64,000 nucleotides of DNA, taken from Diphasiastrum complanatum (taxonomy: Eukaryota; Streptophyta; Lycopodiopsida; Lycopodiales; Lycopodiaceae). Numbering within the stretch: position 1 is the stretch's first letter; each line of letters starts with the position of its first letter. Shown one piece after another: positions 1-60,833 of this stretch. The stretch lies in assembly GCA_029204225.1 (NCBI GenBank), contig CM055092.1, positions 87,344,537 to 87,408,536 of the forward strand, given 5' to 3'. Both the position numbers and the translations under genes were made by a program. Below the pieces are notes generated by a model. That model searched no databases, was not told the origin of the DNA, and saw only the letters and a list, made by a program, of their open reading frames with translations.

Positions 1-81
1 CTTCCACGAGAATGGAAATATGAGCGCCAACTACCTATTGGAATGAAAAAATGAGCGGCAACTTATTACTCTATTATTTTT

Positions 82-707
82 TTGATGATGACATTATATC
101 ATCTACATGTGGATATCCCTATTGATTTGGCACCTTTGCAGAGAAGAGGAGGCAAAGGAGTTCAAATATCTGCTGAAGATCGTTCTCGTTACAGGGCAGA
201 AGGAAAGAAAAATTTGGATTTGTGGACAGATGGAACATTATATCCACAAGATCCAAGCACTTTGACACATTCCACATTCTCTTCAATAACTCATTTAGTT
301 ACATGGATATGCAATGGGCATAGTGGATTACTAGAATATTGTGAAAGATTGCAAAACCATGGAAAACAACTTTATAAAAATAAAGTTCACTTTTTAGAAG
401 GTGAGTTAATTTGGATATCCTCTTATTGTCAGAATAGAGATTGTCATCTCCAAAAGACGTTAGAAGAAAATGAACAACTTAAAAAAAATAATGAATCATT
501 ACAGAAGATAACAATCAATATCAAATCAGAACTAGAGCAAATGCAATCAGTCTTACAGTCTATTTGTATTGAAAACTTACAATTACTGAAGGATGTGGAT
601 TTGACAAAGAAGAAGGCTAAAAGTAAGAAGCGAAATTGACAAAGTTGCAAGGATATTCAAACACTTTCAAAAAGAGGTTATCAAAATAGAAGGATCTGTG
701 CATTCAA
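82..707 (+). pseudogene. First visible exon of a transposase-like gene, coiled-coil N-terminal part
   Basis: Open frame of 185 codons up to a TGA at 637-639. The last third (from about residue 120) is rich in E, K, L, N and Q with heptad spacing and reads as a coiled coil; the first part has no motif I recognise. The frame runs in phase across a GT-AG intron (donor GT at 708, acceptor AG ending at 798) into the next exon, so this is the upstream part of the gene continuing to 2723. Beyond about position 620 a different frame looks more protein-like (also E/K-rich), so a small indel probably sits near the TGA. The true 5' end may lie outside the window. Function unknown. Confidence 0.5.
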
Positions 708-798
708 GTAAGCATATTCTGAATTTTGTAAGTTTTTCAATGACATTTGGATTTAATTTCAGCTATGGTGATATTTAAACTATCTGTTTTTTTTGCAG

Positions 799-2723
799 AT
801 CTGCATTAGTAGCTCCTCGGAATATTAAAGACAATGCTTCACCAGGAATGTCATTGGGCACAATATTGACTTGCAAATCCACTGAGCGTATCACGATGAA
901 CAATAGGATTTCAAATGTAAAGTGTAAAATAGCAAAGTCTTTGATGGTGGACATTCAAAATTTTTTAGATAAGACTATAGTTCAAGGTGCTTGTGATTTT
1001 GCAGGTATTAGCAGGGAAGCATATGCAATAATATTTAAACTAATTAGAGAAGCTTTTAGGCAAGTTCAAATTAGAAAAGTCCCAATCCCTAGGACATATC
1101 ACTTGAAGAAAGAGAGGGATACATTAAACATAGGTATGCATAAGATCACTGGAACTCTATTTCATATTGAGGAGGTGTATGAAATTAATGGAAGATCGAT
1201 ATTCTATAATTCATCAAACAATTTATTTGTTGATTACTTGTCGAGATACATCATCACATTCTATGATATAACCTATGAAAAGGTGAATGACAAAATAATC
1301 ATAGTACTAAAGTTAGATGAGTCAGAAATTGTGAAAGGGCAGAAGATGGAGAGGGTTAGTATAACTCTCATGAATGGTGCTCTATCACAAACATAGAACC
1401 AAGAAGATTACAGATTTAGTGTCTAGTCAGAAAATGATATATGGTGGTTGGCAGCATTTCAGGTAACTAGCCTCATTATTACATTACATTCACTGAATAG
1501 TATTAATACATTGTAAACTAAGTCTGATTAATTCTTTGGACATGTGCTGAAAGAGGATCATGATATATTATCATGGATATTCTCAAGGACATCTTATCCT
1601 AGGATCATCAAGGACCATATGGATGGAGGACTTCTCAATGTTCCAGGAGTTAGAGACTTCAATGTTGAATGGCACTTAGCAGGTGATTTGAAAACATTGA
1701 AATGTATGTATAATATCTCTCACGGTGCTACATCAAAACACCCTTGTTTGCACTGCATGAAAATGGCAAAAGATGTAACTAGGAGTACAAGAATTACTAG
1801 AGAATATGCAGATCCAAACTGGAAGCCTGTGCTGCCTATCCCCTTAAAAAATGTGCATGTTTGCACTCTTCATGCAGAAGTTAGATTAATAGAAAAGATC
1901 ATTTATCTTCATATAGTTTTTGCTTGGAATACTAAGCCAGCATCATTAGCAAAGGAAGCTATCTCTCGATTAGAAGATGTTTTATCAAAAGCAGAACTCC
2001 ATAAAGGACATGTCAAAATTTGAAAAGATGAAAAGCTTTCAGGAAAGAATGGGAACATGCCAACTAAGCCAAGCATAGGAGGAGCAAAGCACATCGTTTT
2101 CTATCAAATCATACTGGTAAGGCTTCTAATATTCAACACTTAGTCTGGACAGATATTATTACTGCCACTCAAGACTTCGAGAAAGACGGTAAAACCAGAG
2201 TACTAAAAGTTGATGTATGGAAAAAGCTTGATAGTATGATTGCTATTTTAAGAAAAGAAAAATACTCTGATATTGATAAGAAAGCTGTCAAAAGGACTTG
2301 TGTCGAGTTTGTTATTGCAATATCAAAAGCATGGGGAGAAGATCACATCACTCATTACATGGTTAGTATAAAATTTTCAAAATGCTTTCAAATTTTCATA
2401 TATATTTAGATCCAAACATAAGACTAACATTATGATTTTGACATATGCAGCACATACTAAGAGATCATACATCATTTTTTGCAAATACATATGGAAGCTT
2501 GAGTGTATGGTCATCACAAGGGACGGAGAAGTCACACTGGCAAGCACAAGCAACATTTTATCGAAATACACAACATGGAGGAACCAATGAAAAACAAAAC
2601 TACATTTGTCAATTGTTTCAGTGGTTCTACCGAAGAGTTCAGATTCGACATATAACAAATTCCACACAATACAACAAGTTTAGAAAAGCATGCAAGTTCA
2701 TACAGGAAGAGAAAATTAGATGA
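799..2723 (+). pseudogene. Transposase-like gene body, multi-exon and decayed
   Basis: Exons at 799-1461, about 1535-2361 and 2451-2723, with GT-AG introns (for example GT at 2362 and AG ending at 2450). Recognisable blocks, in order: HLAGDLKTLKCMYN; a C-x2-C in SKHPCLHCMK; a conserved-looking stretch around 2030-2100; and, after the last intron, WSSQGTEKSHWQAQ followed by an HGG. This layout resembles large transposon-derived families in which a CxxC, a late E/H motif and HGG sit in an RNase H-like transposase; I cannot name the superfamily. Decay is clear: TAG at 1394-1396 and 1425-1427, TGA at 2021-2023, and frame changes near 1397 and 2090. It converges on the minus-strand gene ending at 2844. 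KDZ-type and RAG1-like alternatives were considered and neither is proved. Confidence 0.5.
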
Positions 2724-2843: not shown

Positions 2844-4060
2844 CTATTCATCATCAGATCTTGTATCAGATTCTATGTTAGTATTGTCATGAAGAAATTC
2901 TCTTCTAGCGTATGCATCTAATAGATGTGCATTATCCTTATTTCCACTAAGCTCAATATAAGTGGAATACAATGAATAATGGGAGCTCCTTAAAGGAACA
3001 TTCCCATCAGTAAAGCCTAAAATGTTCAAAACATAAGATCTTTTGACAAAAATGATCTTATTTGTTTTAACAAATTTATGTCCTCCTAGATAAAATGATA
3101 AAGCTTTAACTGCTATTATAAGACTCTCCCCGACTGGGCTCAGCTTGGAATGAGCAACACAGATCTCATTCTTTAGGAAATGCCTAAGATAGTGGCCCAG
3201 TCCACTGTCCCTCTGGAACGAGGATGCGTATTGTCTGAAACCACCTCGTCTTGCAACAAAATCATCTATTATGATAGCATCCTGCAATAGGAAATATATT
3301 AGCAAAAATACATTCAGTGATTGAAAACATTCAAATGCAAGGAAGATTAAACACTTACACATTCTTCATCATCAGCAACAACCAGATCAGGATGATTAAT
3401 AGAATGACCACGTACTGAAGTGGAATCATTAGTGAAGTGCATTAATGATGGATGAGGGAAGCCCATATGGGATTGAAATGCTGTGAATTCTTCATCGAAT
3501 GGTCTACCTCGCCCATCCTCAGCTATATTTGATAAAGTCTTATTCAGACATTCTTCACCAGTCATAAGACCCTCCTCATCATCAAAATCAATACCAGCAA
3601 CAAGGTCATCTGTATCAAAATCTACAAAGTTGGAGAATTCGGAAATTGTGCCGAATAATAAACATAGAACCTCATCCTCACGATAGTAAAAAAATTTCCA
3701 TAAATCAGCAGTAGTAAAATATACATTGTCACAATACGGACACATTGAACTACTTTTGAAAAGATCAAACAATTTGGTGAACATTCTATCCAGTCTATGT
3801 CTAAAAGCTGGGAAGAAATGAACAAGATCAGTATAATGCATGTACTGGAGTGGACCTATGGAGAAAACAGACTTGCTAAGTATATCTTTGAATCTGACAT
3901 AATGTTCATAAAATACGTCAGAATTTGGTTGTGCAGTCCTGAAGATATGTAGATATGGCCTGAATAGACTGTGGAAGTAGTCTAGGTTTTCAATAATCCC
4001 AAATTCACTCAGAAATGAACTCAAGCCTGATTCTCGTGAGGATGACGAAGAAGAGGCCAT
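2844..4060 (-). CDS. Intact two-exon orphan gene, unknown function
   Basis: Exon 1 is 4060-3359 and exon 2 is 3281-2844, separated by a 77-bp GT-AG intron (GTAAGT donor, pyrimidine tract, CAG acceptor); phase is kept, giving about 379 residues without stops. The start at 4060 is preferred over the in-frame ATG at 4108 because it sits in a strong plant context (GCCATGGC) and opens with a serine run. Visible features: a CPYC pair at about residue 120, an aromatic-rich helical N-terminal half, a long acidic middle (D/E-rich, about residues 155-190), a basic C-terminal half and an acidic tail. No family recognised. It is the only gene in the left block without disruption, and diverges from the H3-Ulp1 gene across about 680 bp. 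It may be an accessory protein of the same mobile element. Confidence 0.65.
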
Positions 4061-4076
4061 GGCAGTAACATGAATA

Positions 4077-4590
4077 TCGCACTTGTGCGCGCGGGAGAAT
4101 TGAAGCAAAACTAACTATCAAAATGGCACAGAAGATGGATATGTACGGCAGATAGATACAGAATATCGCACCTGTGCGCGACTAGGTATAGTTGCAAGCA
4201 AACGGACAGCAATGAGCGCACAAAAGCGATATGTCGCGAATTTTGAGAACGGAAAAGGTAAAAAATCAATCGGTTTTCGTGCCATTTGTACTAAATTTTT
4301 GCACGTATGGTCACCGAACTTAGGACACTGTAATGACGCGTGTTCATTCAATTGCTTAGAAACACGTGTCACTCTCGCATTCGATTGTACAAATCCCACA
4401 CATGTAATGTGATAGGGTGACACATGTCGCTCTCGCATTTGTCCATACAACGTCCACACGTGTGACATGACATTCTTTCACAGGTGCGAACCCTGATATA
4501 AAATCACAAATTTTGATGAATTTTTTTCACTTTTTGTTTCACTCCATATATCGCATTTGTGCGCGCCCTTCACAATCGCACTTGTGCGTC
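4077..4590. repeat. Five dispersed near-palindromic TCGCACTTGTGCG motifs
   Basis: Copies at 4077-4092, 4166-4180, 4214-4230 (inverted, more diverged), 4551-4566 and 4576-4590. Consensus TCGCAYYTGTGCGCG, an imperfect dyad (CGCAC..GTGCG). Two lie just upstream of the minus-strand gene, two about 155-190 bp upstream of the plus-strand gene. I noticed no copies elsewhere in the window, although near its start there are two short GAGCGCCAAC / GAGCGGCAAC boxes. Confidence 0.7.
4361..4466 (+). repeat. Imperfect direct repeat with G-box cores
   Basis: Two diverged copies of a unit that begins ACACGTGTCACTCTCGCATT and ends near a CACAYGT box; the second starts at about 4420. The CACGTG hexamers are self-complementary and are the core of plant bZIP/bHLH sites. 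Located in the shared divergent control region. Confidence 0.5.
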
Positions 4591-4743
4591 TTTTCTCAAA
4601 TCTAATCGTTCTCTCTGATATTCGGCTCACACAGGTCTGATATACCATACATTTTGTCCGTACATAGTGGTCATCTGCGAGTTCTTTATCATCCCTCCCT
4701 TCTCATCCTAACCTTCACGCACAAGTCCGCTATCACATAGTAC

Positions 4744-5498
4744 ATGCCCATGGATAGGAGAAAGCAGACAAGGAGAGACTTCTTCTCTCCTGGCTCATCC
4801 TCATCTCCTGCGGTTGCCATCACACCACCTGCTAGATCTAGAACGTGCAACCACAGCAGGTGGCTCTCTGAGATACGCAAGTATCAGAGGTCAACAACTC
4901 AGTTGATCCCAAGAGCTCCATTCTACCGTGCTATCCGGAACATAACAAAAAATGATCTCGGACAGCACGTTAGATTCACACCGAGTGCTCTTCAGTGCCT
5001 CAGGAGGCTGCTGAAGATTATATTAGCCTTTTTTTTGAGGATTCTTTTTTGCTTGCCATCCATACCAAGAGGGTTACCATATTGCCCAAGGATTTTTAGC
5101 TTTTGATGAGAATGAGAAATAGGTATTGTAGGTTACATGTATCTCAGCCTGTTGCTCCTAGACCAACTCCTGTAGATAGGACTAATCTTCCTACGAAGTA
5201 TCCTAGGAAGCAGACAGCCCCCAAGTGTGCTCCTAAGAAAGTGGAGCCTAACCCTTTAGATTCTGTGAAGTCTATCCCAGAATCCATTGTAGATAACGCT
5301 GTTGTTGATAATGCTGTAAATATAGCTACCTCTATTTTGGATACTCCTATAATTGCTATAAATACTACACATCCACCTCCTCTTCCTCCTCCCAATTTTT
5401 ATACATATATAGATTCGAATGATTATCTTAAATTTGAGAAAGACATATCGGATGCTATAGATACAATTGATACTCCTTTTTGTTTTAGACTAGTTTAG
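4744..5498 (+). pseudogene. Histone H3-fold domain (CENH3-like variant) with proline-rich linker; 5' part of H3-Ulp1 gene
   Basis: Starts at ATG 4744 or, in better context, ATG 4750. After a short basic tail (RRKQTRRDFFSP) the alphaN/alpha1 region reads EIRKYQRSTTQLIPRAPF, then a loop-1 stretch one residue longer than canonical H3 before the RF pair, then [11 protein letters not shown]. One base is missing between 5001 and 5004; the shifted frame continues the fold as QEA-type alpha2 (EAAEDY), loop 2 ([15 protein letters not shown]) and alpha3. A TAG at 5097-5099 sits where H3 has Q (KDxQLA). The frame then runs into a basic, proline-rich linker to 5498. EAAEDY, LIP and KDF plus the longer loop 1 recall plant CENH3, but RF rather than RW is H3-like. 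H3 packages DNA in nucleosomes; CENH3 marks centromeres. Shift and stop point to a pseudogene here. Confidence 0.82.
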
Positions 5499-6492
5499 TA
5501 TTAATTTTAGAGTTCTAGATTGTCTGGATCTCAAAGACAAACGGGCTTCTATCAGTGATCCTGTGATAGAGTCCGGGCTTACACTCTTGAAATATGACAT
5601 TGCAAGAGATTCATCAAATGAGTTGCTAGTGTAGAGTAACTTCCTGCTTCAGGCCTTCAAGGAGAACAATGACACATTGTCATAGTGTCTGACAAGTGGA
5701 TTCACACCAGCAACAAAGTATCTACTCATACCTTATCATACGAAGTAAGTTATATTAAATGCTTCTTGATGTTTTATGCATTAACATTGGCATTGTCAAT
5801 GAAAATAGTTCTCACAATTGCAACTAAATAAATTTCAATCTTATTTTGCAGTGACCACTGGAGTTTAAACATGATCTCTATTAAGAGATCTGTAAATAAT
5901 ATTATTAAATGTTTTTATGTCAAGATGAATTCGACAAGAAATACGCATAAGGATGTAGATATATACATTTCATATCTAAGTAAATATATTCCTACAGACA
6001 TTCCCCATTCCGTGGATTGGCAGATCGTCAGCTTGGAGGTAAACTCTGTCTTTCTTAATAGCATTTTGAAATCAATATTCTAATAAAATATTTTCAATCT
6101 AATTCATTCTATTTCATAATTGATTTCTTGTGTGCTGAATTATTTTGCAGTCACCCAAGCAAAATGATTCATTCAGCTGTGGGTGGTACACATTGTACAA
6201 TGCCAAGTTGTTTTTTGAGTGGTTCAACCTTCAACAAGATGTTCATATTTCTAAGGTAATAAATTCTGTTTATTCTTATTTTGGAATCATGATTAGTTTT
6301 CTATTCTGGTGATGTTATTGGCCATTACTAATACATAAATGTTCTATTTTGCAGTTTACACAACCTGAGTACACATCAAGCCAGGTGTACAGATTTAGAC
6401 AAGAAATTATCCTGAGTATACTGGCTAGGCCAAGGCTTCAGCCTCCCGTTATTGATGATGGTGCAAAGGATGATGTAGTTGTACTAAATTAA
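5499..6492 (+). pseudogene. Ulp1-like (C48) cysteine protease domain, 3' part of H3-Ulp1 gene
   Basis: Exons: up to 5744, 5852-6038, 6151-6255 and 6355-6492 (TAA), all GT-AG and in phase. The catalytic His is in NDHWSL just after the first intron; the catalytic block QNDSFSCGWYTLYNAKLFF has Gln six residues before Cys, as in the family. The acidic member of the triad is not evident (the expected place reads FYVKMNS). C48 proteases cleave SUMO-type tags in the nucleus, and Ulp1 domains are frequent passengers or partners of plant and fungal DNA transposons. In-frame TAGs at 5632-5634 and 5683-5685 look like former CAG codons; one frame change occurs near 5490. No intron or promoter is visible between the H3 fold and this domain, so they are read as one gene. 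Confidence 0.8.
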
Positions 6493-6669: not shown

Positions 6670-7874
6670 CTAAAGACGAACACTAGCACTTGAGAAAAAA
6701 TCAACAAATGTATGCAATGAGATAAACCAACTTAGATGAACAATTTTCGAGCCTGTGCTTATCTTCATAGCATTTATTGAGAACTCCTCTAATGGGTGGA
6801 AGTTGATGCGTGGCAAACACAGCTTGGTTAGGATCGTAAGTTTGGGCATTAGGGTCAACCACTTGAGCATTAGGATCATACACATAATAAACAACTGTCT
6901 CAGTGGTGTACCCTGGTTGAGTGGTGTCTTCCACATAATAAGTTGTCGGATCGATGGTATTGGGATCAAGATAGTGGACAACTTGTTGTGGAATAGGTTG
7001 ATTAACAACGAACTATTGACATGGTGGATACTGATTGGGTGCAGTTGGTCGTGGTTGATAGATGCCTTGTCGCGGCATGGACTATTGTGGATTGTAAGCA
7101 CAATGTTGCCGATAAATGGGTCAGGGGTCCACTAGATAATGGTGTCTCAGTCGGGGACATTCATTGGCAGTGTGGTTTTGTGAATAGATAGAAAAAATTC
7201 TTGCTGGAAAAAATTTATCAGCAATATTTTTCATGTTGGTTTGGAAATCAGTAGCGAGTTTATCCATATGGGTTTGTTGAGCTTTCTGCCAAGTTTCCAT
7301 TTGTTGTAAAAGTTTGGAGGATTGGGTGGTATTTTTGAACTTTTGTTGATTAAGACGGTCTAGATTTTTTGATTTCTTTTCTCTGTGATCAAAGTCCTCA
7401 TTGGACCCCTCATCTTCTTCTCGGATGACATCAGTAATTACATCCTTAAGTTGATCATAAATGTCAACTGATTTTAGTTCTTGGCGGATATTTTTAGGAA
7501 GTCCAACTAGGAATAGTTTGATGGCCATTCTTTCGATGATATTTTCATCAGTACATTCTACCTTGAGACGTTTAAAACGCTCAATGTAGCTTCTAACAAA
7601 CTCTTTGAGATGCATCTTAATATGTGTGATTTGGATAAATGGGTCTGAGTCGATTTAGAAGGTTTGAAACACTTGATGAGAGCATCCTTGAGGGTAATCC
7701 AAGAAGCAAGATCAGGAGTTTCAAGGTTGAGATACCACTTTTGATAGTATCATAGAGCACCATAGGGAATAGTCTGAGCTTTTCAGTTTTATAGGTGTCT
7801 CCATAGAAGCGGCTTGTATTATCAAAGTCTTGGAGAAATCCAACTTGATCAGATTCTCCATCGTACTTTGGCAC
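6670..7874 (-). pseudogene. Ty3/gypsy gag remnant
   Basis: Minus strand, three frames. The 5' part (7874-7617) reads as retrotransposon gag (PKYDGESDQVGFLQDF); the middle (7615-7121) holds the C-terminal gag helices (FLVGLPKNIRQEL), an acidic EED stretch and a degenerate zinc-knuckle (HTANECP); the rest (7101-6690) is a P/Q/Y-rich tail with a second Cys-His cluster (NKCYEDKHRLENC). Gag forms the virus-like particle that packages element RNA. Frame breaks near 7617 and 7110 make it non-functional. The RT of a gypsy element at 8.45-9.62 kb lies upstream of this gag on the same strand, the wrong order for one element, so the two come from different insertions or a rearrangement. Confidence 0.7.
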
Positions 7875-8449
7875 ATCGATTCGTGGGATTTTGCGTTCTA
7901 GTCGTGGAGGAGCAGGATTGGAAGATTCAGCACAATCTCAAGAGATGATGCAGTATGAGGGGTAGAAAAACAGAACATGTGATCAATATAGTACTATACT
8001 TGGCCAAAAAAGGTCAAAAAGACAATTTTCTTGCATAATAGGAGATTTTGACAAAAAATGGAGTTTTTCGTAGTAATAGAATTTGTAGACAAAGATAGAA
8101 ATCATGGACAGGCTGAAAAATAAATTTACAGTATCTGCGAATTCTGGTAGAGTCTTTCCATTGTAAAATAATATTTTTGTTAGTTTTTTGGAATTTTTTT
8201 CAGGGGATGGAATGGGCAAGGGAGGGTGCAAGGAATCGTTCATTTTGTGGGCAATTTTGTGGTCTGGTCAGGAATTTTTGATACGGAGGCTTGTTGGACA
8301 GGTAAGGTAAATAGTGAAAAAAATGATGTTCCTGGCAAAAACAATGAAGATCCTTTGTGTCTAGCATGAAAAGCTTTTCATTTTTCAATACCATACTTCA
8401 TAGTGTATGTTAGATATGTACTGGTTTGTGCCTCCACGGAAGTGACAAC
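7875..8449. other. Non-coding stretch, probably gypsy leader or LTR debris
   Basis: No credible coding region. The short minus-strand frames here lack motifs. Position directly 5' of the gag remnant suggests untranslated leader or decayed LTR, but I see no TG...CA pair or primer-binding site. Confidence 0.3.
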
Positions 8450-19430: not shown

Positions 19431-19922
19431 TCATTCGTTGTCCAGAGGTTGTGGTTTGTGGATCGTCGCGGTTTGCGGTTTGTTAAAGTCTACGGTTTGT
19501 CGGCCTTCGTTATCTTCGTTGTTTGTATGTGTCGTGGTGCGGTTGTGGTAGTGGTGGTTTGCGATTTGCGATTCATAAGCTAGCAATGTTTTGTGGGTAG
19601 AAACTTGAAGTTTTTTCAGCTCCCTCTCAAAGCCTGGTAGTTTTATGATTCCTAGACTCGCACGCTGCTTCTCAAACATTGTCTTGTCAAGAGGCTTGGT
19701 AAAAATATCAACCACCATCTGCCTTGTTGGAACAAACTCGGTCTTGAGCTTGTCTTTCTCAACTAGATCCCTTATCAGATGATACTTCATAGCAATGTGT
19801 TTCATTTTGGAATGAAACACGGGATCCTTCGTCAGGTGTATGGAAGATGTGCTATTCAAATACAAGATCAGCAAATCGTCAGTGTTCTCTCCTAGTCCGA
19901 GCCATGTAAGCGCATTGGCCAT
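19431..19922 (-). pseudogene. Copia RNase H C-terminal part (minus-strand element, family A)
   Basis: Uninterrupted 163-codon frame with the copia RNase H signature: STSSIHLTKDPVFHSKMKHI, then IRDLVEKDKLKTEFVPTRQM and VDIFTKPLDK, then the family tail LGIIKLPGFERELKK. RNase H removes the RNA template during reverse transcription. It is the 3' end of a minus-strand element running back to 21946; the N-terminal RNase H part upstream is broken. The tail after residue 110 is H/T/N-rich. The same tail occurs in the copies at 25.0-25.2 kb and 57.6-58.1 kb. Confidence 0.8.
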
Positions 19923-20132
19923 CTTGGTTGCTGCAACGTACTCTGCTTTGCAAGATGATTGTGTACTAATTGTCTGTTTCTTGTTGATCCAAAGAACAGC
20001 TGCATTCGCTGCTATGGTGTAGCCTCCTGAAACACTCTTGCAGTCGTTGTTTATAGATGCCTAGCTTCCATTGGTGAAGGATCTCACCCGAAGCTCTGCA
20101 TCTTGAGAAAAATAAAAACCATAGTCCTTTCT

Positions 20133-31484: not shown

Positions 31485-33257
31485 CAATAATCAATTTTTA
31501 TTCAGAATTACAAGAATCAATTTCATCAGCAACAGCATCTTGTAATTCATCTCCTCTTAGATGATTTTCATCATCACTCTCACTTTCAAAAATTATTTCA
31601 TCATCTTGACTATTATAATTTCTATTCTCAACATCTATGGAAGTGGGTGTTTCAAGTATGGTTTGACGATTTATTACATCTCTAGGTAGTTCATCTCATA
31701 GTTAAAATGAAGGTTTTCCATTTCATTCTCAACATTTGCACTCTCAAATACTCGTCGTGAACGTGGTTCAACTTGAGCTACACACCACCATATCTTGTTT
31801 AGTCGATCTGGTTGAAAAAACACCTGCAAAAATCACTATTTTAGAACATATCAAAAACTCAAATACTGAAGTCACTTGCAATAAAATGAAAAACATTATA
31901 ACATAGCATGTGCACCTGCTCACAGTGACGAGGCAACACCAATGTGTCAAAGGACTCCATGCTCAATGTTTTTGATAAATCAATCGCAAAAAATCCACTG
32001 GGATCCAATTTTACGGTTGCATTTGGCCCTCTACAAACTACCTTGAACCATTTCACATCAAATAAAAAATAGTGTCCACTTTCACCAAATGACACATCAT
32101 AAATATTTTGTATAGTTCCTACGTATTCTATATCTCCTGAGATGGGATTCCGATCTTGTGCACTGCTTTGACTTTCTTGTTGGAAAGATGCTATTACACC
32201 ACAATCGTGTGTGCGTCTCTTGTTATCAATCCTTTCAACACGAAAGTGGAAACCAAAAGCCCATATAGCATTATACATTTTGCACTGCCACATGACAAAC
32301 ATGAATCTCATAAATAATCATTGTGAATGAACATGGTGTCTCAAAATGATTAAACAAATATTGTTATAAACAAGAATGTTCTAATAATAAAGTATCTAAA
32401 GAACAATACCTTCCATTCGCATCCTCTTGCAAAGTCCCATTCTGTGTTTGATATTTTTTATTCCTCTTTTGTTGCTTTTTGTAATGTGTCATGCATCCAC
32501 TCTATAGTGCATTGCTTGGGCAATGGCTCAAGATCATGTGAACTTGAGGCCATGTGTCTACCTCTATTCTGTCGTTGGCGCTTTCTAGACAAGGCCCTTT
32601 CTTTTTTTTCTTCTTCATATAGGTCTAACCATTTATCCATAACTCCACAATTATAAAGCATGAATGTAGAAATTTTTTCTTGTTGGAAGGGTGCCAACCT
32701 ATGGACCTTTCCCATCCCTTGAGATTTTTCACTAGTTATCTCTTCGGCTTCCTCATCATGCCACAGTAGTGGAGCAGATGGATGTAGTTGGTGCAAAATT
32801 TCAGTAACATAAAAGAGAGAGATTCATGTACTAACCATCCCTTTGACATGCTACCTTCAAGCCTTGCCTTTTGACGCACAAAATCTTCTAAGACTTTCAT
32901 GTACATTTTCATAAAGAACATCCACCTAGTCACAAACGGTTAAAAATAAGTGTTTTATTTAATGAGTTCATGTATCAATTGATTTAGTTTAAATACACAT
33001 GCAAAAGATAATTTATGCACTTATACCTAGTGTGCACTAGACTAGCAATAGAAACTTCTTCAACCAAGTGCACCAATAAATGCACTTGTGAGTCCATGAT
33101 GGAAGTCGGAAAATATCTCTCAAACATGCACACAATCTCCACCATATCCTCATGTCTCTTGCGAAGATCCAGCTCACGGAATTCTTTTGAACACATCCAT
33201 CTACAACATATTCAATCCATTTTATGTCTATTTGAATTTCCAATCAATAAATACTAA
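31485..33257 (-). CDS. CACTA transposon gene, DUF4218 and DUF4216 part
   Basis: Exons in the plant CACTA order. 33196-32984 has the DUF4218 start (MVEIVCMFERYFPTSIMDSQ, then VHLLVHLVEE); 32933-32736 continues (YMKVLEDFVRQKARLEGSMS, KGWLVHES). 32796-32458 is a basic linker (KVHRLAPFQQEK). 32311-31859 is DUF4216 (IEYVGTIQNIYDVSF, HYFLFDVKWFKV, DPSGFFAIDL). The last exon to about 31485 has WWCVAQVEPRSRRVF and a D/E-rich tail. Introns separate the blocks with plausible AG/GT ends. These domains always accompany TNP2 transposase in plants and are probably part of the mobility machinery. It shows little visible decay apart from possible breaks at exon edges. Confidence 0.72.
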
Positions 33258-33287
33258 ATAGAAAAATGCACCAAGGACATGTAAATA

Positions 33288-35411
33288 CCTGACAATGATT
33301 GATAGTTTGTATATGATCTCACAAATATCTTTTGACAAGCACCCACGAATTGACAATGGATAGATGAATTGAATCATTTTTAGCCAATCATGAGATTTGA
33401 GACCTTGCAACTTTCCATTCACTGTGAATGATGACCGTAGAGAATGGGCAAAAGTAGTTGGTGTTCTAATGTCATGAATTATGGAGTGCACATGGTTAAG
33501 CTCCTCCTTAGTGAATGTCCAAGGTACTTTTGGAGCATGATCTTCACCATCCTTTATCCAATATTCTTTTTTGGTGTCTGATTCTTTTGGGTCGTGCCTT
33601 GCAGCAATGGTATCTTTTTCACCAATCAAGTGTTTCCAAATAGATTCACCCACATTTTTAAATATGTGCATGGGATCAAGTAGGTGATTAATCAAAAGGT
33701 TATTCCAATATTCCAAACGATGAAATATAGATAATCTTTTCATACCATCAATTGACTTTGCTTGGAGATTCCTCCCATAGTATTCGCCAATCTTTCACGG
33801 ACATCCTCTTTGGAGGCATCTCTCTCTCAACTGTTCCTCCAAAACCTCTTCTATGAGTGTCTCTGAATGGATGGCCTTCATGAAGTATTTACGATGATTT
33901 TCATAAACCACTTTTTTGAGACTAAAAGAGTATCTTTCCACAAGATTTGGCCCGCACAAAAACAAGCATTTTTTCCAGCCGTTTGAAAGCTTGCCCAACA
34001 AATGGATACTATCAATCACTACTAAAAAAAGTATATGTCAAAGAATAATCATAGCCATTGTAGTATATCATGTAAATGTCAAGAATTACTAGTTGTATGT
34101 AACTGTAAACAAACTCCTATGTACACAAGATAGACATTGTTTGAATGATTAACTGAGCATTCACCTAATCCTGGATAGTCATGTATTGTCCACATTACAA
34201 TGGCATGTAGTGTAAACTCCCTCTCATGTAAGGGGCACGAAATGTCATATGCTTTTATCCCCTTCCACAAATCTTCCAACTTGTCAATAAGCGGCTAAAG
34301 ATACACATCCATGTTCTTAACCTTGCGTTGGCCAGGAATTAAAAGTGCCAACATAATGTGTCTCTTTTTTGTACTCAACCAAGGAGGAATATTCTAATTT
34401 ACCAAGCAAACAGGCTAAATGGACCACGTAGTTGCTCGTACACCAAAGGGGTTCACACCATCTGTTGCAAGACCAAATCTCACATTTCTTGACTCATTGG
34501 CAAAGCTTGGATACTCTTTGTTGATTTGTTTCCATGCAGGTGAATCTGAAGGTAGCCTCATCATCCCATCCGTAGAGGTATGGTGTGCATGTTAGTCCAT
34601 AAGTTGTGCAAGAGATTTACAATGAAATAAACATTGCAATCGTGGAATTACCGAAAAATGTCATAAAACTTTGCACAGGATGGTTGCCCCTTGCAAATGA
34701 TCTCTATATCGAGGAGTATCACAAATGGGACATTTCTTGAGTGATTCGTACCTTCTTCGATATAAAATACAATCTTTTAGACATGCATGATATTGCTTGT
34801 AGTCCATCCCGATGTTAGTCAACATCTTTCATGCCTCATCTCTTGTCTTAGGCATGACATTTCCTTCCGAGAGAATTTTGTTTTAAAATAGTCTATACAT
34901 GACAAAAGAAGTCATTGTAAAAAACATATCACTCGATGTCCAGATTGTAAATTTTGTTTCAAAGCAAAAATGACAAGTAGATGAAAAAAATTTACTCAAA
35001 TAATGATGTGAAGCTTTGGTCACTCCATCTATATCTGGCTTGAAGATTTAATAGAAGTAGAGAAGTCGCCAAACGAGATGTCTTTACTCCAGGATACAAT
35101 GCGGTCTTTGATTCTTCTCGCAATTTTCTTTCTTCTTTAGACAAAAGTGCCTCCTCATCTTGTTCATTGTGTCTAGCTGCAATATTGCTCTCGTACATAT
35201 CATCCAACATGTCTCCCATGACTGCAAATTCATCATTTATTGGAAGCTCATTTTCATCGTTGGAACTTGTTTGCGAAGAAGTAGATCTAGATGAACTAGA
35301 TTCAGATGCATTAGTCTCTTGATTAATGCGCTCATCAATTTCCATCATCTCTTTTAAACCTTCATGTAGACGATGAGGTAATTGCTTTATATGTGGACCG
35401 TTGTATTGCAT
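33288..35411 (-). CDS. CACTA TNP2-type transposase
   Basis: Collinear blocks on the minus strand: 35411-34992, S/D/E-rich start and TALYPGVKTSRLATSLLLLN; about 34860-34685, KMLTNIGMDYKQYHACLKDC then YRRRYESLKKCPICDTPRYR (C-x2-C); about 34500-34390, RNVRFGLATDGVNPFGVRAT; 34279-34145, EFTLHAIVMWTIHDYPGLGE; 34019-33795, GWKKCLFLCGPNLVERYSF; 33743-33288, LLDPMHIFKNVGESIWKHLI and GKLQGLKSHDWLKMIQFIYP. These match the TNP2 family that cuts and pastes CACTA elements. Introns lie between blocks; stops near 34420 and 34296 suggest some decay. No CACTA terminal repeat was identified. Confidence 0.75.
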
Positions 35412-35499
35412 TCGTCATCTACGTCGATCGTTACGAGAATTATTGTCTCCAACACTAAATGAGGATGAAGAATCCTATATGTCAAAATAACAAGAAGTA

Positions 35500-42266: not shown

Positions 42267-42930
42267 TTTTACGGGAGGTGGAACTACATGCTTCTTCTGA
42301 TTGGCTAACCTAGACTCTAAGTCTTGGTCTCTCAGATTAGTTTCAAGAAGCTATTTATTAGTGGTTTGAATTTGTTGGTATAAAAGTTCAAGAGCTTGTG
42401 CCACATTGGATGGGTTTGATAGATCAAATGTTGAGTTTCAATTGGTTTGATCCATTGGGGTTGCTTGTCCGTTTTCCTAGTATGCAAATACAACAACAAG
42501 TGCTCAAATTAGAATGATAGAAATGTTCGAATCTTACATCCAATGCAAATAAAAAGCATTTACTTCTTAATCTTATTGTTTGTAAGCTCCATCCAAGCCT
42601 ACTATTTGCAAGCTCAATCCAAGCTTAAGAGGAAAACAACAAGAAGTTACATTTGCTTTAATCCAAAGCAAAAATAAAAACCAAATCTTTATGTAAACTT
42701 CAATTAACTAATCCAAGCTAATTTTTACATAAAGTTCTCATTCCAATTCCATTTCCATTTGTCATTTTAAAAGAAATCAAAATTTTCATATTTCTCACTA
42801 TTCTAGATCTCCAAATCCATGAAATTAGTGTCTATAAATCTAAAAACAGTCTAGAAAAATTCTCGAACAATTCATGAACAAATCTCAAAAAATGAAAAGA
42901 GACACGAAAAAAACTCGAAAAACAGCATGA
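42267..42930. other. Leader-like spacer
   Basis: No coding. On the minus strand this would be the 5' leader or LTR debris of the gypsy element; no primer-binding site was recognised. AT-rich. Confidence 0.3.
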
Positions 42931-42932
42931 AC

Positions 42933-44010
42933 AAAACTAGAAAAGATCTCAAAAAGACAAGAAGAAATCTTGAAAATGGAGACACACACGAAAGACACAC
43001 AAAAAATGGAGACACACACGAAAGAAGCTAGAAAAATTGCCAAACAAAACTAAAAAACGAAACGGAACAAAACAACGAAAAAAAACTAGAAAGGCTAGAA
43101 AAAGAACGAAATCGCGAAGAAAACTTGAAAAAAAAGTCACAAAAAACTGGAAAACAAAAAGTCACAAAAAAGACCTAGAAAAAGATAAAGTGGCGAAGAA
43201 AACTAGAAACGATCTCGAAAAGACAAGAAGAAATCTCGAAAATGAAGACACACACGAAAGACACACAAAAAATGGAGACATGCATGAAAGAAACTATAAA
43301 AATTGGCAAACAAAACTAGAAAACGAAACGACGCAAAAAATGAAAGGCACAAAAAAGAACGAAGTCACGAAGAAAACTTGAAAAAAAAGAAGTCGCAAAA
43401 AATTGAAAAAGAAAAAGTCATTAAAAAGAGCTAGAAAAAGATAAAGTGACGAAGAAAACTAGAAAAGATCTCAAAAAGACAAGAAGAAATCTTGAAAATG
43501 GAGACACACACGAAAGACACACGAAAAATGGAGACACACATGAAAGAAACTATAAAAATTGTCAAACAAAACTAGAAAACGAAACGATACAAAAAATGAA
43601 AAAAAAAATGAGAAAGGCTCGAAAAAGAACGAAGTCACGAAGAAAACTTGAAAAAAAGAAGTCGCGAAAAACTGAAAGAAAAAGTCGTTAAAAAGAGCTA
43701 GAAAAAGATAAAGTGGCGAAGAAAACTAGAAAAGATCTCAAAAAGACAAGAAGAAATCTCGAAAATAGAGACACTTACAAAAGACACTAGAAAATTTGCC
43801 AAACAAAACTAGAAAACGAAATGACGTGAAAAATGAAAAAAAAAAACGAGAAAGGCTCAGAAAAGAACAAAGTCATGAAGAAAACTTGAAAAAGAAAAAG
43901 ACGCGAAAAACTGGAAAAGAAAAAGTCGCAAAAAAGAGCTAGAAAAAGTTAAAGTGGCAAAGAAAACTAGAAAAGATCTCAAAAAGACAAGAAGAAAACG
44001 TGCAAAAACT
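42933..44010 (+). repeat. Purine-rich tandem array (unit about 241-267 bp, five starts)
   Basis: The marker AAAACTAGAAAAGATCTC occurs at 42933, 43199, 43455, 43722 and 43963. The plus strand is almost all A/G with scattered C. Units contain the sub-blocks GAAGAAATCTYGAAAATGGAG and GACACACACGAAAGACACAC, the latter doubled in the first copies. Frames through it (114 and 81 codons, K/R/N/E/T-rich) repeat with the DNA and are judged artefacts of composition. Confidence 0.85.
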
Positions 44011-50073: not shown

Positions 50074-50647
50074 TTACCTGTCCAATCGGCATCTGTATAA
50101 TACTAACATTGGCGCTTCAGGATGATCATACTTCAAACCAAAATCCAATGTCCCTCGAATGTATCTGAGAATACGTTTAGCAGACTTCCAGTGTGCTTGA
50201 CTAGGATCTTGCATAAATTGACTTAGAATGTAAAGATTGGGATCGACATCACTCTTTATCATTTCCCTTTGCTTGAAGTGTTCATCAATGCAAGAGTACC
50301 AGGCCTGTGGTGCTTGCTTCAATCCGTAAATGGCTTTGTTGAGCTTACAAACGAGATGCTCTCTCCCTGGCTCAACAAATCCTTGAGGTTGTACTAAGTA
50401 CACCTCTTCATCCAACACTCCATTAAGAAAAGCAGATTTAACATCCTTTTGCTGGATCTTCCAACCATAGAAAGAAGAAATAGCAATGATAGAACGTATA
50501 GTTACCATCTTAGCTACGGTTGCGAAGGTTTCTTCAAAATCAATACCTTCCTGCTGCTCAAATCCTCTCGCAACCAACCATGCTTTATACTTGTTGAGTT
50601 GCCCATCAGCTCCATATTTGATCGTATATCCATTTGCAAGTGATAGG
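50074..50647 (-). pseudogene. Copia reverse transcriptase (family C), palm deleted
   Basis: Frame with VARGFEQQEGIDFEETFATV, QQKDVKSAFLNGVLDEEVYL, KLNKAIYGLKQAPQAWYSCI, then a jump from DPNLYI to FMQDPSQAHWKSAKRILRYI. The region that should hold YVDD is missing, so this RT is dead by internal deletion. The upstream end (CKWIY, GADGQLNKYKA) is cut by a solo LTR at 50648. Confidence 0.85.
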
Positions 50648-51302
50648 TGTGAAAATTGTCAACATTTCCTAGCTAGTTTGAGGCCTAAATTGGCTAAAAT
50701 TGTAAATAGTTTTGGTTCTGGAGTTTCACACGTGTGAACCAGGCCACAATGTTTTTATTTACTGTATTTTTTCAGTATGATGAAGTGTCAAACTTCATAC
50801 CCTTCAAAATGAGACCATTTTGATGTATTTTGGTCATATAAGCCATTTTTAGCTATTTTTCCTATATAGGGAATATCTAGGGTCAAGTACCTTCTAGAGA
50901 GAGGAGAGAGAGTCATCTTCCTCATCCATAAATAGTAGGGAAGTCGTGGAGAACAGGTTGGAGAAACCTTTTGTATGCTTCATTGAGATCAATAGATCAT
51001 TGTCATTGTTTCTTCCTCCATTGAGAGCATTGTTGTGTGTATTGTCTTCAAGCTATTGTGTATGATCTTAGGTGCTTTCCAAAAGTGATAGGCTGATGTA
51101 TTATGGACTGTATAATGCTATTTTGGGCCGCACTTGATGTTTATGGAAGTTTCCATTTGTGATAAATGCTTTTTGATCAAGTTCTTTGCATTCTAGGTAG
51201 CATAGAATGTGTTGCCAATTCCTAGCTTATGTAGTTTGGAGTGCAAGCATTCAAGCCAATGATCTTGGAGTTTAGATCCACTTAGGATCTGTATTTTTCA
51301 CA
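50648..51302. mobile_element. 655-bp solo LTR inserted in copia RT
   Basis: Begins TGTGAAAATTGTC and ends TATTTTTCACA; the ends form an inverted repeat TGTGAAAA / TTTTCACA. Perfect 5-bp duplication ATAGG at 50643-50647 and 51303-51307. Removing the insert plus one ATAGG restores the host frame (minus strand MPITCKW). Shares CACACGTGTGAA and its first bases (TGTGA) with the 792-bp solo LTR at 23.6 kb, so they may be distant relatives. Strand unknown. Confidence 0.9.
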
Positions 51303-51787
51303 ATAGGCATCTTACCATCAGGTAGCTCAACCAAGTTCCACATTGTATTTTTCGATATAACTTCCAGTTCTGTTTCCATAGCTTCACGCCACTCCTTGTG
51401 CTCCTTTGCTTTATCAAAAGTTTTTGGTTCTTGAGCCTTGAGCACAGAATCTATTAGGGCTAGATTCATCTCCAATCTTGCAAGAGGTTTTTGATTTCTA
51501 CTTGATCTTCTAAGCTCTCCCTGCTCACTTGATTCGGGAGTATCTCCCTTATTAGCATCACTTGTTACTAACAAGTACCACTTAGGCACTCTCCTAGGAA
51601 TCTCATTATTGACCCTGCCTTTTTCCATTGGCTCTTCCATATCAACACCAACTTCTTTCTTCACTTGCACTTTAGCTTTATCATCAAAGGGATCAATTGT
51701 CAATTTTATTTGGTCATTTTGACCCATCTCATCAAAAGTAGCATCTTTGGAAATCACGATCTTTTGTGCATTTGTGTCATACATCAT
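51303..51787 (-). pseudogene. Copia integrase-RT linker (family C)
   Basis: Frame with AQKIVISKDATFDE, acidic spacer, GELRRSSRNQKPLARLEMNL and EPKTFDKAKEHKEWREAMET then WNLVELPDGKMPI: the conserved run into RT. The 62.1-62.5 kb plus-strand fragment has the same blocks. Confidence 0.8.
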
Positions 51788-51843
51788 ATATGCCTTGGCT
51801 CTTTCATCATATCCAAGGAAAATACACTTAACAACTTTTGCAT

Positions 51844-52583
51844 CTAGCTTCTTTCGTTTTTCATCAGGTACATGAGCGTAAACATCACAACCAAATATTC
51901 ATAAATGAGAAACATTAGGTTTCTTTCCAGTAAAGCTTCGTAAGGTGTCTTACCCTCCACAGACTTCGTAGGACACCGATTCAAGATACGAGTAGTTGTG
52001 TTGCATGCTTCTGCCCAAAAAGTATTTGGCAAACCCTTGCTCTGAAACATTGCCCTAGCCATCTCCACAATGGATCTGTTTTTCCGTTTTGCAACTCCAT
52101 TCTGTTGTGGTGAATAGGGTGTAGTGGTTTGTCTCTTGATCCCCTGATCATTGTAGAAATTTCTAAACTCTGTTGAAAAATACTCACCGCCACCATCTAA
52201 TTTAAGGGTCTTAATATAACAACCTGTTTGTTTTTCAACTAGAGCCTTGAACTCTCTAAACTTGGCAAAAGCATCAGATTTCTTGCTTATGAAATAAATC
52301 GAGATATGTCTACTATATTCATCAATGAATGTGATGAAATAGTAACAACCACTAATGGACCTAGTTTGTATTGGTCCACACAGATCACTATGAACAAGAT
52401 CAAGAATGTCATTGGCTCTTCTTGCTTCATCTTTGGAAAATCTCTCTCTATGCTGTTTTCCAAAATGCAACCCTCAAAAATTTTTCCTTCAAAAGAGATA
52501 TCAGGCAATCCAACAACTAGATTACCTCTTTTAAGGATTTACAAGCTTTGAGCACTAATATGACCAAACCTTTGATGCCAAAG
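51844..52583 (-). pseudogene. Copia integrase (family C), catalytic Glu changed
   Basis: Frame 52470-51844 (208 codons): HFGKQHRERFSKDEA, LDLVHSDLCGPIQTRSISGC (first Asp), IKTLKLDGGGEYFSTEFRNF (second Asp), then PQQNGVAKRKNRSIVEMARA where the third catalytic residue of the D,D-35-E triad is Lys instead of Glu. WAEACNTTTRILNRCPTKSV follows. The HHCC part (LWHQRFGH) lies at about 52583-52550. Integrase would insert element DNA; this copy could not. Confidence 0.85.
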
Positions 52584-59359: not shown

Positions 59360-60660
59360 GCACTCTTCGTGGTCTTGTCAACCTTCTGGGAGATCCTCCT
59401 GGAATAGCTATGCCTTTGTCCTTGTCTACTCTGTTCAGTTTGGAACCATCTTGGTTTACAGGAACTGCGGCGGCATGTTGCCTCTCGAATCTTTCTTCAT
59501 CTGATTCGTTGCTCGAATGGGAGACGACTCAAAAATCTTCGTTCTCGTGTTTTTCCTCTGCTCCCTCTGACATTGGCGGCAGGTCATAGTACTGTCTTTC
59601 TAGAACTTCATAGCTAACATGGTCTTCATTGGCCATTGTCCTGCTCTCGTCGAATTTGACATCCCTCACTATTTTCACAGTGTTCGTGACTGGCATGTAG
59701 ATTCTGTAGTATGACGAATTATTGTCATAGCCTACCAGAAATCCTTGCTCGACTTTCTCATCAAGCTTCTTGCAAACCTTATTAAGAATATGTGCATATG
59801 TTGCATAGCCAAATATTCTGACGTGAGACAGGTTGGGTTTTCTACCCCATCATAGCTCATGTGGTGTCGTGTGAGGAACACCAGATTTACTTGTCCCATT
59901 TTGGATGTATGTGGCTGTAGCTACGGCTTCAGCCCACAGTGCCCTTGGAGCTTTTGAGTATGCCATCATGCATCTGGCTGCTTCCATCAGGGTCCTGTTC
60001 TTTCGTTCATCAACACCATTGTGCTACGATGTGTAGGCTGCAGTTCTTCTGTGAATGATGCCACGATCATTGCAGAAGTAAGTGTAAAGCGATTCGAGAT
60101 ATATTCGCCACCTCGACCTGTTTTGATCTGTTTCACCTTGCTGTCTGTGCATCTCTTAGCCCAATTCACATATTCTATGAATTTATCGGGTACTTCAGAA
60201 TTATCTGAATAAAATACACTCTGGCAAACTTGCTATAATCATCAATGAGGGTTATATAGTATTTTGAACCTCCTACTGAGATCACGTTGAATGGACCGCA
60301 GATGTCAGCGTGCACCAGCTCCAGAATCTTTGTCGTTCCATAGGAGTCTTTGACGAATGGTGTGCATGACATCTTGCCTTTCAAACAAGCATCAGAGGTG
60401 GTCGAACTGGTTGCATTCGAGATGATGGCCCCTGTTATTGCTCCATGTTGACTTGCTTGGTAGAGTGCCATTGAGTTCATGTGGCAGAGTCTTATGTTCC
60501 ACAAAGTGTCTGGAAAGTTGTCATGGGTCTGATGCATTTGATCTTTAGGTAGGAACACTTTTAGATGATATAGCTTGCCCTTCCTTTTGCCTTGAGCAAT
60601 GAGAGTGTTGGTGTTGGCATCAATCACGTTGCATGCTTTCTTAGAAAATGTCACACGCAT
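59360..60660 (-). pseudogene. Copia GAG-pre-integrase, integrase and linker (family A, third copy)
   Basis: 60660-60175 has MRVTFSKKACNVIDANTNTL, RLCHMNSMALYQASQ, CLKGKMSCTPF and LELVHADICGPFNVISVGGS (first Asp kept). 60169-59987 has KTGRGGEYISNRF where the second catalytic Asp is Gly, followed by NERTGP-type sequence with the Glu. 59990-59640 reads WAEAVATATYIQNGTSKSG, KLDEKVEQGFLVGYDNNSS and IVRDVKFDESRTM. 59640-59360 is the linker. It is the most complete integrase of this family in the window. Confidence 0.78.
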
Positions 60661-60833
60661 CCCTGCATCTGCTATTCTTCCTACAGAGTCGGCACAAACA
60701 GAACGTCTTCGAGTCGTCTGTCTCTGTCGTTGGTGTTGAGCCAGAGTGAACCAATACCATTCACTTGATGTCTGGATCCATCTCCAAGAACTATGAATCT
60801 TGAGGGATCTGCACTTCTGAAATCAGACATGAT

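Follow-up and report, generated by a model that had tools for sequence, protein, structure and literature searches.

A histone H3 fold joined to an Ulp1-type protease in a gene of a multi-copy DNA transposon of the clubmoss Diphasiastrum complanatum

A gene for an H3-Ulp1 fusion in a decayed transposon copy

The stretch of DNA analyzed here (C1:87344537-87408536 of the 1.74-Gb genome of the clubmoss Diphasiastrum complanatum; 64,000 bases, hereafter called the window) contains at positions 4744-6492 a decayed member of a multi-copy family of DNA transposons with terminal inverted repeats (TIRs). The gene at this place, termed H3-Ulp1 here, joins a histone H3 fold by way of a linker to an Ulp1-type (C48) protease domain. 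A first-pass annotation made from the sequence alone had proposed that both parts belong to one gene of a mobile element, and this proposal is now supported by Pfam, by copies in which the parts lie in one frame and by intact relatives. We regard the presence of an H3-Ulp1 fusion in a transposon gene as virtually certain. The H3 and Ulp1 sequence blocks named in that annotation were all found at the positions given. Its four exons and the lack of an intron between H3 and the linker were likewise recovered; the start codon is the ATG at 4750 and not at 4744. The linker is followed by Ulp1 as described, except that exon 1 already contains the beginning of the Ulp1 domain (Table 1).

The introns between the four exons are of the GT-AG type. 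As that annotation had stated, the window copy is damaged by a frame shift and by TAG codons (5097, 5496, 5632 and 5683), the frame breaks being two in number, near 5000 and near 5496-5503, instead of one. In the linker, the frame is open over 132 codons, and when the bases of 5101-5495 were shuffled 2000 times, 1 of the 2000 shuffled sequences was free of stops. The X-joined H3 piece of the window matches the Pfam family Histone with E 3.2e-24 and H3 chains of the PDB with E about 4e-17. Peptidase_C48 was detected in the joined window exons (5503-6492) with E 4.6e-9, and the Ulp1-like SUMO protease 6dg4 of the PDB matches the protease part with E 7.5e-4.

Copies with an intact reading frame

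A genome search with the 327-amino-acid exon-1 protein as query yielded 9917 first-look candidates, the best 122 of which were scored. In all of these 122 best candidates, H3, linker and the N-terminal half of Ulp1 lie in one frame if stops are read through, and the alignments begin no later than residue 10 and end no earlier than residue 311, with 84-100% identity. Within the match, 24 of the 122 scored copies are free of stops and 98 contain stops (counted from the table). Since the scored copies are the best candidates, the proportion of intact copies in the family as a whole is below 24/122. When nine other copies were translated, a stop codon was present just ahead of the start MDRR in all nine, and in seven of them exon 1 forms one open frame from the start to IPYHT inside the Ulp1 domain. 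In copies C17 and C8 the tail is interrupted by a stop, and copy C1b is shortened by a deletion.

Fully open spliced genes with three GT-AG introns each were found in copies C7 (470 amino acids), C5 (470 amino acids) and C11 (473 amino acids). The intact relatives of the damaged copy which, according to the first-pass annotation, should be sought thus exist elsewhere in the same genome. The C7 product, a single polypeptide, matches both Pfam Histone (E 1e-27) and C48 (E 1.1e-10; 42.2 bits at a curated cut-off of 20.7). Downstream of 30 H3 copies, Ulp1 exon 2 was present in 29, exon 3 in 28 and exon 4 in 25 cases. We reject a reading as two separate genes, because the intact exon 1 is a single frame leading from H3 through the linker into Ulp1, and that of a single freak pseudogene in view of the many copies with the same fusion. 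Judging from these frames, intact copies very probably make H3-Ulp1 as one protein.

A second transposon family with the same fusion

A family-2 element located beside copy C6 has the same arrangement of tail, H3, linker and Ulp1, with introns at matching places, in a gene that is broken. The family-2 parts match Pfam Histone with E 3.1e-19 and C48 with E 4.4e-5 (23.9 bits, above the cut-off). In BLASTP, the joined proteins of families 1 and 2 align over residues 1-465 and 1-495, respectively, with 29% identity (E 2.6e-61); the identity between the families amounts to 44/84 residues in H3, 31/112 in the linker and 67/218 in Ulp1. Because two deeply diverged families share a colinear protein, the fusion would most simply predate their split.

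A search with the family-2 H3 piece gave 4763 first-look candidates, and the best 150 of these were scored (78-100% identity, covering at least residues 1-92 of 98). Nine of the 150 are stop-free in the match with an open frame of at least 330 amino acids (table count). In copy L053, H3, linker and the N-terminal half of Ulp1 are contained in one frame with one TAG. A cluster on C3 at 18.5-21.4 or 29.97-30.16 Mb accounts for 38 of the 150 scored copies, 34 of them stop-free (table count); it may correspond to a centromere, to an array or to a histone gene that has become free.

Fold, loop and tail of the histone part

The histone fold claimed by the first-pass annotation is borne out by an AlphaFold2 (AF2) model of copy C7, in which alpha N (residues 35-47) has block means of 72-78 in the predicted local distance difference test (pLDDT), and alpha 1 (55-70), alpha 2 (78-105) and alpha 3 (113-130) have block means of 91-97. 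A Foldseek search with this model matched nucleosomal H3. The Ulp1 half of the modelled exon-1 protein remained unfolded, as expected, because exons 2-4 are absent from it. In the alignment, R83, H113, K115, R116, T118, K122, D123 and L126 are kept in family 1, which we take to be DNA-contacting or H3-H3' interface residues of H3. We consider it fairly probable from these features that the H3 part would enter nucleosomes.

Aligned to H3, the tail of family 1 reads D-R2-R3-K4-Q5-T6-R7-R8-D9 and that of family 2 A1-R2-T3-K4-(Q/E)5-T6-(A/T)7-R8-L9, the latter in the near-canonical forms ARTKQTAR, ARTKETAR and ARTKQTTR. Position 4 is a lysine in 19 of 20 open family-1 copies, and position 9 in none of them (0/20). 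The residue at position 9 is Asp and once Asn (20/20 Asp or Asn). In 17 of the 20 copies K4 is the only lysine of residues 1-38. K4 as well as L9 are found in 4/4 family-2 copies (C6, its near-duplicate C226, L053 and L055). The tails of the transposon histones contain no equivalent of K27 or K36.

One way in which such a tail might act is dominant inhibition, in which the H3K9 methyltransferase would be poisoned by a hydrophobic or acidic residue replacing K9, much as happens with K-to-M histones, and the protease would be secondary. The Leu in 4/4 family-2 copies would fit, and the Asp or Asn in 20/20 family-1 copies argues against it. Leucine at this place is, to our knowledge, not a strong methyltransferase inhibitor, which also counts against this explanation. 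We consider it very unlikely.

Compared to H3, loop 1 is longer by one residue in family 1, confirming what had been noticed for the window copy, and by four residues in family 2. After loop 1, family 2 has a Trp at a place typical of CENH3, and family 1 has a Phe. The Gln of the PFQR position in alpha 1 is lost in both families, and family 1 contains the EAAEDY and KDF stretches. In favour of the likeness to plant CENH3 that the first-pass annotation had pointed out are the longer loop 1 of both families and the Trp of family 2. Against it stand the near-canonical H3 tails, the Phe of family 1 and a distinct CENH3-like protein of the host (P0050), which falls beside plant CENH3 with support of 95/68 and 90/78. 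H3/CENH3 trees were calculated from 136 and 96 columns, with the transposon histones on very long branches. The transposon histones grouped with CENH3 in none of the trees made here. In the approximately unbiased (AU) test, neither holding both transposon histones with plant CENH3 (p-AU 0.375) nor holding them with canonical H3 (p-AU 0.166) was rejected. By sequence, the tails recall canonical H3 and the loops recall CENH3.

A centromere-directed histone that mimics CENH3 and takes the element or the protease to centromeric chromatin would be in line with the loop 1 lengths, the lost Gln in alpha 1, EAAEDY and KDF, the grouping with CENH3 left unrejected by the AU test, and the clustering of 38 of the 150 scored family-2 H3 copies on C3. 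The CENH3-typical Trp of family 2 is the reason why we put the odds of such mimicry higher. Nevertheless, we hold it to be unlikely in view of the tails of family 2, the tree topologies and the Phe of family 1. Moreover, the 122 scored family-1 copies are spread over all of C1-C24 without a cluster on the scale of that of family 2 on C3; a group of four lies within 0.33 Mb at C3:57.6-57.9.

The protease part

When a profile built from both families was searched against the PDB, SUMO proteases were matched with a best E of 7.5e-6. The His, Gln and Cys of the protease are kept in both families, and the usual catalytic Asp aligns in both to an Asn (MNS), so that a full His-Asp-Cys triad is not present. 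That the His, Asp/Asn, Gln and Cys positions have their catalytic roles in the H3-Ulp1 protease is our assumption. Because the Asp is aligned to Asn, our claim extends to a predicted C48 fold with a Cys-His site, and the protein is called a putative SUMO protease only.

Selection and decay

Pairwise dN/dS (the ratio of nonsynonymous to synonymous substitution rates) was determined for 20 open family-1 copies with resampled 5-95% ranges; the open copies L043 and L045 were left out. The values are 0.28 (0.02-1.55) for residues 1-15, 0.72 (0.39-3.83) for residues 16-35, 0.25 (0.13-0.44) for the H3 part, 0.61 (0.41-1.33) for the linker and 0.27 (0.13-0.49) for the N-terminal half of Ulp1, the ranges being wide, the copies picked for open frames and decay after insertion included. 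By this measure, H3 and the N-terminal half of Ulp1 look constrained in family 1, and the linker far less so. Where copies of the H3-Ulp1 exon are decayed, most of their stops are TAG (approximate count in the 122-copy table). The TAG excess suggests C-to-T decay at CAG, a CHG site.

These data bear on the question whether the fusion is passive cargo, i.e. captured pieces of host genes that were co-amplified without a function for the element. Captured genes are frequent in plant transposons, as stated in a review (PMC13317346), and 98 of the 122 scored copies are decayed by stops. However, passive co-amplification hardly accounts for a colinear four-exon fusion kept in two deeply diverged families, for 24 of 122 scored copies being stop-free and three genes fully open after splicing, or for a dN/dS of 0.25-0.27 at both ends vs 0.61 in the linker. 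Thus, we give it very little credence.

The element and its surroundings

The family-1 element has sharp ends in the alignment of copies, with a TIR of 35 bases, CATTAGAGGAGTTCTCAATATCAAAAAGACCCTTT. Its inner 33 bases were found genome-wide, with up to 2 mismatches, at 981 forward and 1030 reverse positions (2011 termini), and the reversed control gave 0 + 0. Complete family-1 copies (C5, L031 and L032) have a length of about 9.25-9.45 kb and contain, in this order, TIR, putative transposase (+), gene A (-), H3-Ulp1 (+), gene B (-) and TIR. The name of the putative transposase rests on gene position and motifs, and no Pfam family was found for it at E <= 0.001. Gene A has open reading frames (ORFs) of 355 and 173 amino acids in copy L032 and no Pfam match. 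Between the two families, gene B shows 49% identity; it matches no Pfam family at E <= 0.001, and AF2 gave a pLDDT of 34 and no usable fold. The idea of a ubiquitin-like C-terminus of gene B was dropped. Besides Histone and C48, the element proteins thus gave no Pfam match at E <= 0.001 and no recognised transposase family.

Table 1. Features of the window copy and of related copies. Positions are those of the window unless another sequence is named.
Feature	Position	Strand	Remarks
H3-Ulp1 exon 1	4750..5744	+	Short tail, H3 fold, linker, N-terminal half of Ulp1 domain
H3 fold (alpha N, alpha 1-3)	about 4855-5133	+	Pfam PF00125 (3.2e-24), PDB matches, AF2 and Foldseek of copy C7
Linker	about 5134-5480	+	In exon 1
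Ulp1 domain start	about 5500	+	Still in exon 1
H3-Ulp1 exon 2	5852..6038	+	Presumed catalytic His of Ulp1 (DHW); MNS stretch where the usual Asp sits
H3-Ulp1 exon 3	6151..6255	+	Gln and presumed catalytic Cys, block QNDSFSCGWY
H3-Ulp1 exon 4	6355..6492	+	Ends in stop codon
Putative DDE-like transposase, broken gene	1..2720	+	By-eye motifs LKLDESEIVKGQK and GDLKTLKCMYN...CLHC; conserved in other copies
Left TIR	C1:87344217		About 320 bases left of the window; TIR match at C1:87344219
Gene A	2847..4060	-	Starts MASSSSSSRES; transcribed divergently from H3-Ulp1
Divergent non-coding region	4061..4749		Near-palindrome TCGCAYYTGTGCG four times, at 4077, 4166, 4551 and 4576
Gene B remnant	6670..6775	-	Element 7979-8078 matches window 6676-6775, nothing beyond
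Gene B in copy L031	L031:895-1746	+	
Gene B in copy L021	L021:1937-2788	-	
Gene B in copy L029	L029:3173-4033	-	

A scan of 8 elements or part-elements found the near-palindrome TCGCAYYTGTGCG of the divergent non-coding region in all of them (8/8), in 1-4 copies and at similar places. In base shuffles of two elements, the looser pattern CGCAN2-4TGCG occurred on average 0.09 and 0.14 times per shuffle. Among five two-ended copies, a target-site duplication was seen only in L031 (3-base repeat TCA), and there was no consistent length.

The element organization is relevant for the possibility that H3-Ulp1 is a targeting or integration factor. In this scenario an H3-H4 dimer would dock the integration complex on nucleosomes of a chosen chromatin state, and the transposase or repair proteins would be deSUMOylated by the protease during transposition. 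The H3 fold is conserved and the gene shares its TIRs with the putative transposase, which is in agreement with such a function, as is the role in the transposition process proposed for Ginger1 transposases bearing Ulp1 or OTU (PMC2836005). On the other hand, the protease is fused here to a histone and not to the transposase, mere docking does not predict a loss of K9 with K4 kept, and the five two-ended copies lack consistent target-site duplications. We regard a targeting function as rather doubtful.

No TIR was found inside the window, and the right 1.2 kb of the window element, TIR included, is lost at 6775 beside gag-like sequence. Gag-like ORFs with a zinc knuckle (by eye; 6780-7937, minus strand) adjoin this broken right side. 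Also by eye, remains of a CACTA (tnp2-like) transposon were recognised from ORFs at 33228-35414 (minus strand), and Copia-type pol pieces with self-similar sequence at 19431-20060, 50074-52473 and 60175-60822 (all minus strand). At 42929-43997 the sequence is a tandem array, A-rich and built of units of about 241-267 bases, and 42974-43381 is open over 135 codons in one frame.

Comparison with known proteins and elements

The window H3 is 43-56% identical to H3/CENH3 proteins among the 120 matches listed. With the H3 region as a shorter query protein, 256 of 308 candidates were obtained at E <= 0.001, with at most 56% identity among the 120 listed, all of them Pfam Histone. The joined window protein, a broken copy as query, had no homologue at E <= 0.001 among 4386 candidates, and the window H3 region at full protein length, likewise from the broken copy, had none among 16 candidates. 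A virus origin was considered and rejected: in IMG/VR the C7 exon-1 protein gave 8 pattern matches, none of which was confirmed as a relative, and the window gene has no DNA match in phage records. Searches of the open-licence literature revealed neither an H3 encoded by a transposon nor an H3-Ulp1 fusion. No transposon is known to us that codes for an intact core histone with signs of selection, or for one joined to a SUMO-type protease. These negatives refer to the protein searches and the open-licence literature, Repbase and other lycophyte genomes lying outside the comparison.

With canonical H3 and CENH3 the protein shares the full H3 fold and, in family 2, a near-canonical tail; it differs by the loss of K9 and nearly all other tail lysines, the longer loop 1 and the protease as a C-terminal extension. 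Like Ulp1/SENP proteases (MEROPS C48), it scores above the Pfam C48 cut-off and keeps His, Gln and Cys, whereas the Asp of the triad is aligned to Asn and a histone is placed at the N-terminus. Ginger1 is likewise a TIR DNA transposon with a C48 protease, which is located there on an integrase-like transposase and here on a histone (PMC2836005). Histone-derived sequence in a mobile element is also described for Helentron-Cq-32A of Culex; there, eight copies contain fragments of H4 and H1/H5 that are broken by stops and frame shifts (PMC4067079), in contrast to H3 in frame with a protease in 122/122 scored copies here, 24 of them stop-free.

H3-Ulp1 as a candidate anti-silencing factor

Transposons fight silencing with DNA-binding proteins. 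The VANC proteins bind short repeated motifs in the non-coding DNA of the elements that encode them and bring about hypomethylation (PMC5735166), and some VANC-type genes (KIU) carry an Ulp1 domain (PMC13317346). The KIU/VANC genes of Vandal, a non-TIR Mutator-like element, resemble H3-Ulp1 in being transposon accessory genes, in the Ulp1 domain of the KIU type and in a repeated short motif in the non-coding DNA of the element. They differ in that the word 'histone' is absent from the main text of the review (PMC13317346), and in that 35-base TIRs and other genes without Pfam match are found here. We thus liken H3-Ulp1 to VANC in how it may work and not as a member of that group. Regarding silencing itself, in plants H3K9 methylation is coupled to non-CG methylation by CMT enzymes in transposon silencing (PMC10398659).

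Overall, our best explanation, to which we give about an even chance, is that the H3-Ulp1 of the element is an anti-silencing factor; that anti-silencing is its main role seems to us slightly less assured than that. The H3 part would pair with host H4, enter nucleosomes and bring the protease to chromatin, with the basic, Pro-rich linker joining the H3 fold to the Ulp1/C48 protease. In a nucleosome with this H3, the K4 region would be kept, and K9 methylation would be impossible (Asp or Asn in family 1, Leu in family 2). The tethered protease could strip SUMO or another ubiquitin-like tag off chromatin-bound silencing factors. The loop of H3K9 methylation and CHG methylation might thus be broken on the element, hit twice, by the K9-less histone and by the Ulp1 protease, and H3-Ulp1 would correspond in function to the VANC proteins of Vandal. 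Editing of chromatin by the element at its insertion sites, which the first-pass annotation had suggested, is plausible.

Several of our observations weigh against this reading. With the Asn in place of the catalytic Asp, the protease may work like papain-type enzymes, which work with Asn, or it may be weak or a SUMO binder only. Several linked copies among the 30 examined lack the catalytic Cys or have stops in exons 2-4. The H3 tree alone joins the two families weakly (support 80/29). L055, the one copy of the C3 cluster that was read, consists of H3 with the tail ARTKQTARLT followed by unrelated repetitive sequence without Ulp1; we think that such an H3 is a derivative of the fusion. An ordinary promoter role of TCGCAYYTGTGCG is as likely as that of a motif bound in the manner of VANC. 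Finally, besides the stated limits of the dN/dS values, the tail lysines may have been lost simply because the tail decays (dN/dS of 0.72 for residues 16-35).

A more far-reaching version of the anti-silencing reading is speculative, and we put it forward tentatively. A transposon lineage may have evolved its own H3, which keeps the activating K4 region and could bear no K9, K27 or K36 marks, welded to a deSUMOylase. The resulting nucleosome would be unsilenceable and would also strip SUMO-dependent silencers, aiding the rise of the element to a thousand or more copies. In family 2, the H3 would then have become free of the fusion and multiplied within a chromosomal cluster as a K9L histone on its own.

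Implications

If the H3 part enters nucleosomes, the protein would be a selfish histone variant, and the abundant clubmoss element might use its home-made histone to evade or rewrite the silencing of its DNA by the host. In that case it would also be a natural tool for direct tests of the loop between H3K9 methylation and CHG methylation and of what SUMO does in silencing. It would further give the Ulp1 domains that recur in plant transposons a concrete chromatin address and could explain how the element rose past a thousand copies.

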